Below are positions 19,359 to 57,873 of a stretch of 64,000 nucleotides of DNA, piece by piece. Each line of letters opens with the position of its first letter. Positions within the stretch are counted from its first letter, which is position 1. Under the pieces are notes generated by a model that worked only from the letters and a program-made list of their open reading frames with translations, made no database searches and had not been told where the DNA came from. The translations under genes and the position numbers were made by a program. The stretch comes from Thermomicrobiales bacterium (GTDB lineage Bacteria; Chloroflexota; Chloroflexia; Thermomicrobiales; UBA6265), in the NCBI GenBank assembly GCA_019637585.1, contig JAHBVL010000002.1, forward strand, positions 1-64,000. The letters are read 5' to 3'.

Positions 19359-21524
19359 CTAGATGAAGAGCGGCGCCAGCACCAGCGTGATCGTGGCGAA
19401 GAGCTTGATCAACACATGGAGCGACGGACCAGCGGTGTCCTTGAACGGGTCGCCGACGGTGTCGCCGACCACGGCGGCGGCATGCGCCTCAGAACCCTTG
19501 CCCAGGATGTTGCCCGCTTCATCCTTCAACTTGCCAGCTTCGATGTACTTCTTGGCATTGTCCCAGGCGCCGCCACCATTGTTCAGGAAGAGCGCCATCA
19601 GGACACCGGCGATCGTGCCGATCATCAGAAGACCAGCCGCGGCCTGCCAGCCGAGCAGCACACCGACGACGATGGGACCAGCCACGGCCAGAAGACCAGG
19701 CAGCACCATCTCACGCAGCGCGCTGCGGACTGAAATGTCGACGCACTTCGCGTAGTCCGGCTTGGACGTTCCCGCCATGATGCCCGGATCTTCGCGGAAC
19801 TGGCGCCGGACCTCTTCGATCATGTCGCCGGCGGCGTTGCCGACCGCGCGGATCGCCAGTGAGGTGAAGAGGAAGACGATCATGGCGCCGATCAGACCAC
19901 CGACGAAGACCTTCGGCTCAGCCACGTTGACCACGCGCTCGACTTCGTTGCCCACGCCCTTGAAGCGGTTGACTTCTTCCAGGAAGGCGGAGAAGAGGAG
20001 GAACGCGGCGAGAGCGGCGGTGCCGACGGCGTAACCCTTGGTCAGCGCCTTGGTGGTGTTGCCGGCCGAGTCGAGCGCGTCGGTGACGTCCCGGATCGCT
20101 TCGGGCTGATTGGTCATCTCGACGATACCACCGGCGTTGTCGGCGATCGGGCCGAAGGTGTCCATGGCCAGGATGTAAGCCGCGGCCATGAGCATGCCCA
20201 TCGTCGCCACAGCGGTGCCGAAGATACCGGCCGAAACGGCGGCGTCAGTGGGGAAGTCGACCGATTTGCCGATACTGTAGGAAGAGAGCAGCGCTCCGGC
20301 GATGACGACGGCCGGCAGGCCGGTCGTCTCCATGCCCACCGACAATCCGGAGATCATGTTGGTGGCCACACCCCTGCGCGACTGGTCGGCGATTTCGCGG
20401 ACCGGCCGGTACTCACCCGCGGTGTAGTACTGCGTGATGTAGAGGAAGGCGATCGACGTGGCGATACCGATCACGCCACAGAGCGCGAACTGCCACTGCC
20501 CATACGGCAGAACGCCGTAGGTGACGATGAAGAGACCGACAACCGAGAGAGCGGAGACGATGAAGAAGCCCTTGTTCAGCTCTTTCATCGGATTGGTGAT
20601 GGCGACCGACGGGCGAATCGACAAGACGCCGATCAGCGAGCCGATCACGCCGACGGCGCCGATCAGGAGCGGGAAGAAGATCCACGCCAGGGAGTCGTCC
20701 GCATCAGCACCACCCGATGCCTTGTACAGCGCCACACCAAGAACCATCGCCCCGATGAACTCAGCGGCAGAGGATTCGAAGAGGTCGGCGCCACGGCCGG
20801 CGCAGTCGCCGACGTTGTCGCCAACCAGGTCAGCGATGACCGCCGGGTTGCGCGGGTCGTCTTCCGGGATGCCCGCTTCGACCTTACCCACCAGGTCGGC
20901 GCCGACATCCGCAGCTTTGGTGTAGATACCACCGCCGAGCTGAGCGAAGAGGGCGACGAAACTGGCGCCAAAGGCGAACCCGACGATCCAGTAGGGCGTT
21001 TCGGCAGCGGTCGGCAGCGCGCCCTCAGCGAACTGATAGACGATGCCGTAGATCGCGCCGACACCGATCAGCGACAGCGCCACGACCAGGAAGCCGGAAA
21101 CCGCGCCGCCGCGCAGGGCGACGGTCAGCGCTTCGCCGAGGTTCTTCTGGGCGCCGGCGGCCGTGCGGACATTCGACTTGACGGCAACATACATGCCGAT
21201 GAAGCCGGAAACGCCCGAGAGAAAAGCGCCCAGCAGGAACGCGCCGGCGGTGACGATGGCGCGATCGGTCTGGTGCTCGTTCTCGACAAGGTAGACGATC
21301 GCGCCGAGCACGAACATCACCACGATCGCCAGCATGGCGATCGTCTGGTACTGGCGGCGCATGTAGGCCATGGCGCCTTCGAAAATCAGATCAGAGACAC
21401 CGCGCATCTCCGGAGTACCGGTATCACGGCTCATGACATCCCGGGCGAGATAGGCGGCAAAGAGAACCGCAATCCCTCCGATGATGAACACGGGCAGCAA
21501 GTACGAACCTACGTTGTCCAACAC
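19359..21524 (-). CDS. hppA: Membrane-bound proton-pumping pyrophosphatase
   Basis: Couples hydrolysis of pyrophosphate to H+ (possibly Na+) transport; 721 residues with about 16 membrane helices. The catalytic block DVGADLVGKVEAGIPEDDPR is at about residues 200-220, followed by DNVGDCAGRGADLFES. The second acidic block lies near GPIADNAGGIVEM, and the last near the C terminus in GDTVGDPFKDTAGPS. The determinant GNTTKALTKG (about 490) has Lys where K+-dependent enzymes have Ala, so a K+-independent H+ pump is inferred. GTG 21524 directly abuts the ribosome site GAGGAGGAGG; TTG 21521 gives better spacing and may be the true start. A pseudoknot begins the transcript (see 21650-21694). Confidence 0.96.
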   Translation of the reverse strand: MLDNVGSYLLPVFIIGGIAVLFAAYLARDVMSRDTGTPEMRGVSDLIFEGAMAYMRRQYQTIAMLAIVVMFVLGAIVYLVENEHQTDRAIVTAGAFLLGAFLSGVSGFIGMYVAVKSNVRTAAGAQKNLGEALTVALRGGAVSGFLVVALSLIGVGAIYGIVYQFAEGALPTAAETPYWIVGFAFGASFVALFAQLGGGIYTKAADVGADLVGKVEAGIPEDDPRNPAVIADLVGDNVGDCAGRGADLFESSAAEFIGAMVLGVALYKASGGADADDSLAWIFFPLLIGAVGVIGSLIGVLSIRPSVAITNPMKELNKGFFIVSALSVVGLFIVTYGVLPYGQWQFALCGVIGIATSIAFLYITQYYTAGEYRPVREIADQSRRGVATNMISGLSVGMETTGLPAVVIAGALLSSYSIGKSVDFPTDAAVSAGIFGTAVATMGMLMAAAYILAMDTFGPIADNAGGIVEMTNQPEAIRDVTDALDSAGNTTKALTKGYAVGTAALAAFLLFSAFLEEVNRFKGVGNEVERVVNVAEPKVFVGGLIGAMIVFLFTSLAIRAVGNAAGDMIEEVRRQFREDPGIMAGTSKPDYAKCVDISVRSALREMVLPGLLAVAGPIVVGVLLGWQAAAGLLMIGTIAGVLMALFLNNGGGAWDNAKKYIEAGKLKDEAGNILGKGSEAHAAAVVGDTVGDPFKDTAGPSLHVLIKLFATITLVLAPLFI

Positions 21525-21649: not shown

Positions 21650-21694
21650 TTGCTCACACACAAGCGCGTGGTGAGCAATCTACCCGCCACGCGC
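21650..21694 (-). ncRNA. H-type pseudoknot at the 5' end of the hppA mRNA
   Basis: On the minus strand, stem 1 is GCGCGTGG (21694-21687) with CCACGCGC (21671-21664), 8 bp. Stem 2 is TTGCTCA (21678-21672) with TGAGCAA (21656-21650), 7 bp. The order S1-L1-S2-S1'-L3-S2' has loops of 8 and 7 bases and no base between the stems, so coaxial stacking is possible. It starts about 2-3 bases after the predicted transcription start. It matches no riboswitch consensus known to me. Function is unknown; ligand sensing, mRNA stability or protein binding are all open. Confidence 0.7.
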
Positions 21695-21702
21695 GACTTG
21701 GA

Positions 21703-21711
21703 ATTCTACCA
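21703..21711 (-). promoter_or_regulatory. hppA extended -10 promoter
   Basis: TGG-TAGAAT on the minus strand forms an extended -10 element. The same TGGTAGAATT string occurs before gyrA. No clear -35 is seen, as expected for an extended -10 promoter. Confidence 0.6.
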
Positions 21712-57295: not shown

Positions 57296-57873
57296 TTGCA
57301 GGACTGCGCGGCGTCGTCGCCGGAACGAGCAGCGACTCCGTGCTGCTCGATGTCAACGGAGTGATCTACCGGATTGGCGCCACAACCAGCACGCTCGCGG
57401 AGCTGGCCGGTGTGGATGGGCCAGTCTATCTGCACACCCACCTGATGGTGCGGGAAGACGCCATGGCCCTGTACGGGTTTCGCTCCCCGGACGAACTGCA
57501 GCTTTTCGAGACCGTCACGACGGTTTCGGGCATCGGTCCCCGGTTGGGTGTGGCGATCCTCTCTCGCTTCACGGTCGATCAGCTTCGAAATGCGATCCAG
57601 GCTGGCGATGCCGATCTGCTGGCCACCGTTCCCGGCGTTGGGAAGAAAACAGCGGCGCGGATGATCGTCGAGCTGCGCGGCAAGCTGCCGTCGGTTATGG
57701 CCGGTGGAGCATCCGGCGTCACGAGCGATGACAACGACGTTCTCGAAGCACTGCGGTCTCTGGGCTACAACGCCGCGGAAGCGTCCGCAGCCATGGCAGC
57801 ATCAGCCGCGAATGCCGGTCCGACGGTCGAAGAGCGGATCGTGGCGGCGCTGCAGTTCCTGTCGTCGAATTAG
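57292..57873 (+). CDS. ruvA: Holliday junction branch-migration protein RuvA
   Basis: Binds Holliday junctions as a tetramer and loads RuvB; 193 residues. The N-terminal OB domain begins MIAGLRGVVAGTSSDSVLLDV. The helix-hairpin-helix motifs are in LFETVTTVSGIGPRLGVAILSR and LLATVPGVGKKTAARMIVELRGK. A flexible linker and the RuvB-binding domain III (VLEALRSLGYNAAEASAAM) follow. The start is GTG 57292. The usual partners ruvB and ruvC are not in the window. Confidence 0.95.
   Translation: MIAGLRGVVAGTSSDSVLLDVNGVIYRIGATTSTLAELAGVDGPVYLHTHLMVREDAMALYGFRSPDELQLFETVTTVSGIGPRLGVAILSRFTVDQLRNAIQAGDADLLATVPGVGKKTAARMIVELRGKLPSVMAGGASGVTSDDNDVLEALRSLGYNAAEASAAMAASAANAGPTVEERIVAALQFLSSN

Follow-up and report, generated by a model that had tools for sequence, protein, structure and literature searches.

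Initiation of mRNA decay depends on the unpaired nucleotides at the 5' end, with ompA and papA of E. coli and aprE of B. subtilis among the cited cases (reviewed in PMC3997798). For B. subtilis RppH at least two unpaired 5' nucleotides are needed, and three or more are preferred (PMC3997798). The leader described here precedes hppA in a window of 64,000 nucleotides from a Thermomicrobiales bacterium, and it resembles the 5' stem-loops of these three mRNAs in that a stable hairpin lies a few nucleotides from the predicted 5' end and is followed by a long leader and then a Shine-Dalgarno sequence. It differs from them in that its arms are conserved as sequence, in an extra GTGTG element, and in that its stabilising effect is one we infer.

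Two further kinds of RNA element come close in form. The fluoride riboswitch (crcB motif, RF01734) is a pseudoknot class associated with fluoride-sensitive enzymes. The hppA leader is reminiscent of it, being short, possibly pseudoknotted and placed ahead of a pyrophosphatase gene; however, it gives no match to the covariance model even at an E-value of 5. The compact H-type riboswitches SAM-II and preQ1 share pairing order and loop sizes with the hppA leader, in the window genome only, but the second stem of that leader is unconserved, and neither an Rfam match nor an expression platform was found. RNA control of membrane pyrophosphatases seems to be undescribed, and a literature search on hppA together with riboswitches returned nothing relevant.

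The hppA locus and its promoter

hppA (19359-21524, minus strand) encodes a membrane-bound proton/sodium pyrophosphatase (Pfam PF03030, 2.7e-252; NCBIfam, where the label is the generic 'sodium-translocating'). Its product contains the motif GNTTKALTKG, which we take, by the A/K rule, to suggest a K+-independent membrane pyrophosphatase. Translation probably starts at the TTG at 21521 rather than at the GTG one codon upstream at 21524; the sequence TTG-GA[CT] (TTGGAC or TTGGAT) is kept in many relatives just 3' of the GAGGAGG Shine-Dalgarno sequence. Upstream lie secD and secF, and the secF-hppA gap of 232 bp contains the hairpin region.

The window genome is the sole member of its genus in the genome collection compared. 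hppA was detected in 25 of the 32 genomes of the family, and leaders of distant hppA genes, which came from a scan of genome contigs, were left out of the comparison. A DNA-level search of 100 relatives with the leader gave no match spanning the region of the two proposed stems, while a 15-mer pattern across S2/S1 with mismatches allowed was discarded after it gave scattered background matches in plenty.

The sequence-only reading had placed an extended -10 promoter, TGG-TAGAAT, at 21703-21711 on the minus strand, and the comparison bears this out. The pattern TGNTANNNT, mostly as TGGTAnACT, is shared by 19 of 25 family leaders, 128-212 nt upstream of hppA, and by three of four leaders from outside the family; in L130 the site was identified by eye and counted as TGGTGTACACT. 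A leader with this pattern usually has no second copy of it in the 450 nt before hppA; the remaining 6/25 family leaders lack the pattern. A simple sigma-70 scan returned no match to a -35 element, as expected of an extended -10 promoter. A dedicated promoter of this type between secF and hppA is thus supported, and it would start the hppA mRNA.

The hairpin at the predicted 5' end

Read on the minus strand from 21694 to 21650, the region runs GCGCGTGG (21694-21687), CGGGTAGA (21686-21679), TTGCTCA (21678-21672), CCACGCGC (21671-21664), TTGTGTG (21663-21657) and TGAGCAA (21656-21650). The arms of stem 1 (P1, 8 bp) are GCGCGTGG at 21687-21694, which begins at about +4 of the predicted transcript, and CCACGCGC at 21664-21671. 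The 5' arm, as CGCGTGG or a near form, is found 7-10 nt past the -10 element in ten leaders from nine genera and two families (L018, which is the window leader, L020, L023, L025, L026, L029, L030, L128 and L130 from the family, and L042 from its sister family). Counted along the predicted transcript, P1 thereby begins near +3 to +5, in agreement with the initial placement of the structure near the transcript start. Its complement follows about 7-21 nt beyond the 5' arm, with variable spacing. Across the ten leaders the P1 arms pair in 97.5% of cells, compared with 25-65% in slid controls, in an alignment that was fitted to stem 1 and so favours it. An unfitted helix test was run besides. In this test the best helix that the 12-nt segment after the promoter can form was compared with that in shuffled downstream sequence, across 22 leaders, giving a Fisher p of 5e-4, which is not a strict probability as the leaders are related; two control segments gave p 0.99 and 0.61. 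Folding stability of the window at +1 exceeded that of other leader windows marginally (p 0.065-0.076), and the full-leader fold showed no extra stability over shuffles (z 0.20).

Two of the eight P1 pairs have changed on both sides, one at the base of the stem (G-C to A-U) and one in L042 (U-A to C-G). The outermost pair occurs as G-C, G-U or A-U, and the other as U-A, U-G or C-G. Covariation is thin, because five of the eight pairs never vary among the ten leaders, and a constraint on the sequence itself, acting on DNA or through protein binding, is possible. Since homologues keep it, stem 1 exceeds chance, and its reality at the predicted 5' end of the hppA leader is supported by the comparison.

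The loop of P1 is itself structured in most homologues, where a short helix is found at the same place (e.g. AGGC GCTT GCCT). In the window it consists of GGGTA (21681-21685) and TGCTC (21673-21677) around GAT, and P1 with this inner helix has a fold energy of -22.2 kcal/mol, compared with -14.8 kcal/mol for P1 alone. A few nucleotides after P1, the leader alignment reveals a conserved GTGTG (21657-21661 in the window), present in this or a near form (NTGTG) in eight of the ten leaders. Several further family leaders carry a variant P1 or none. The closest hppA relative (L019, 85% identity) has kept the promoter but has another leader with a 5-bp hairpin, GCCGG-ACGGAGAA-CCGGC.

The association with hppA, which had been proposed from the window, holds across the 158 genomes of the class. 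Nine hppA leaders (9/158 genomes) scored 52 bits or more with a covariance model, and the next best hit elsewhere reached 27 bits; the nine are the training sequences of the model, and only the absence of matches elsewhere is independent information. Likewise, in the family genomes the combined pattern of promoter (TGGTAnACT), CGCGTG and CGCG occurs solely upstream of hppA. The stem pattern CGCGTGG-N-CCRCGCG, searched genome-wide, was no more frequent than its control, and the stem by itself is therefore not diagnostic. In L029 promoter and P1 are kept, while secF is replaced upstream by a divergent gene, which on our reading of its sequence would encode an ABC-type binding protein. Hence the element belongs to hppA.

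What the comparison of leaders shows is thus the promoter, P1, its position relative to that promoter and its restriction to hppA. We propose, with about an even chance of being right, that these form a conserved 5'-terminal stem-loop on the hppA mRNA, which acts as a cap-like mRNA stabiliser. P1 and the short inner helix, predicted to start about 3-5 nt from +1, would fold in vivo into a hairpin that leaves few unpaired nucleotides at the 5' end, and the most likely consequence would be slower 5'-end-dependent decay. The exact transcription start is a prediction from the promoter, and a point against the stabiliser is that the predicted 5' tail of 3-5 nt may still admit RppH. A regulator might also bind the same hairpin, because the P1 arms and GTGTG are conserved as sequence. 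If the stabiliser reading is right, this would be an ordinary, apparently undescribed instance of a conserved hairpin at an mRNA 5' terminus that goes with a single gene, from a Chloroflexota lineage that has received little study.

The same conservation can be read at the level of DNA. CGCGTGG...CCRCGCG together with GTGTG, both a short way past the predicted start, could be an operator to which a regulator binds, the hairpin being incidental. The arms are nearly invariant in sequence, and in genus g6 the 5' arm CGCGTG persists next to a less regular 3' arm, both in favour of such a site. However, the spacing between the arms ranges from about 9 to 21 bases, which is unusual for a dimeric operator, and the outermost and the U-A pairs change on both sides, as RNA pairing predicts. 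We consider the operator unlikely.

A competing helix and the two-state reading

The 3' arm of P1 can also pair with the downstream GTGTG region. In the window this rival helix, P2 (TTGCTCAC-C-ACGC / GTGTGTGAGCAA), has 12 bp with a one-base bulge and is mutually exclusive with P1. A leader that alternates between P1 and P2 could set hppA expression through two states. The lowest-energy fold contains P2 for the 80-nt 5' segment and, from 50 C upwards, for a 60-nt segment; P2 has 11 bp in L042 (p 0.002) and 8 bp in L029 (p 0.07), and the combined Fisher p across the ten leaders is 0.003. Against this, the signal rests on two leaders, that of the window and L042; P2 is missing in L023 and L128, and elsewhere it is mostly weak and contains numerous G-U pairs where CGCG stretches face TGTG stretches. 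Moreover, P1 with its inner helix (-22.2) outscores P2 alone (-15.6), and an expression platform was not seen. We regard such a bistable leader as doubtful, more so than the operator. In L042, where P1 is GCGC-T-GCGG/CCGCGCGC and the rival 11-bp hairpin GTGCCGCGCGC/GTGTGCGGCAT, the bistable pair is clearer than in the window.

That P1 would exchange with P2, or with a pseudoknot in the window species, as a genuine switch through which hppA responds to an ion, pyrophosphate or temperature, is improbable. Such a regulated hppA switch, if true, would be more interesting than a stabiliser, on evidence that is weak, and P2 is the most interesting lead to emerge from the analysis.

The proposed pseudoknot and weaker readings

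The sequence-only reading had centred on an H-type pseudoknot, in which P1 is interleaved with a second perfect stem of 7 bp, TTGCTCA (21672-21678) with TGAGCAA (21650-21656), with loops of 8, 0 and 7 bases. Letters and geometry are exact on the minus strand. The arrangement had been called unlikely by chance; this is true of stem 1, which homologues keep, and not of the 8+7 arrangement itself. When the window is shuffled with its dinucleotide composition kept, each strand yields on average 0.175 Watson-Crick H-type arrangements of 8+7 bp with similar loops. One more interleaved 8+7 complementarity is present in the unshuffled sequence at 57326-57362, across the start of a reading frame that resembles ruvA. 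This one is probably chance and serves as a useful negative control. Thus, the arrangement alone is not decisive, and homologues are needed.

Given P1, and with flexible H-type geometry (L2 up to 3, L3 2-16, G-U allowed), stem 2 of the window has p 0.015 (one as good arises in about 1.5% of shuffles). Among 12 further leaders that carry P1 or a variant form, the same relaxed search found no second stem better than chance (p 0.11 to 1.0), and on the common alignment stem 2 is paired in 49% of cells. It is also missing in the leader of L019. Compensatory changes in homologous leaders, by which the structure was to be judged, were accordingly found for stem 1 and are absent for stem 2. Probably the second helix is a chance complementarity found in one genome, or part of a competing fold; its 3' strand, together with 21657-21661, also forms the rival hairpin, and most of its 5' strand is taken up by the inner helix. 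A pseudoknot that looks perfect in one genome dissolves on comparison into a first stem that is supported and a second that is not shared.

A pseudoknot might nonetheless form in the window species and serve as a ligand-sensing riboswitch for hppA. The perfect interleaved pairing has feasible loops. Its stacking sums are -19.2 and -13.0 kcal/mol, and a typical pseudoknot energy penalty is about 9.6, which brings it close to the nested hairpin at -22.2. The lack of conservation of stem 2 and the occupation of its 5' strand by the inner helix speak against it, as does the restriction of the element to hppA, within the genome and across the order. The leader had been said to match no known class, and indeed an Rfam 15 covariance search returned no match at gathering, nor at E-values up to 5. 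The stretch before the start codon had been suggested to hold an expression platform; the scan of the hppA leader found no terminator, and reading through it revealed no anti-Shine-Dalgarno (CCTCC-type) stretch. Predictions of Shine-Dalgarno accessibility gave a mixed picture, whether the first 60 nt were included or left out. Positive evidence for a riboswitch is absent, and we hold the ligand-sensing pseudoknot to be very improbable.

Least probable of all is a terminator of the upstream secDF genes: the hairpin does lie 60-100 bp past secF in the intergenic gap, but it has neither a U-tract nor a terminator-like site (the bases after the stem are TTGTGTGTG), its spacing from the hppA promoter is near-fixed, and it is kept in L029 without an upstream secF. 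A leader peptide was considered as well, as the GTG within CGCGTGG opens a 15-codon frame in the window; the frame is not conserved among homologues, and the peptide was rejected because the 3' arm is read in another frame in L023/L030 than in the window leader and because the lengths vary.

Two other genera have leaders of other forms. In genus g6 of the family (L032, L033, L036 and L038) a shared CGCGTGTAACTCAG-like sequence directly follows the promoter, as a distinct conserved 5' element that replaces the GTGG/GTGTG form. In genus g4 (L028, L031 and L034) the promoter takes another, TATGGGATAGTT-like form with no secF match upstream, and L031 and L034 have a hairpin unlike P1 (GGCACGTG/CACGTGCC in L031).
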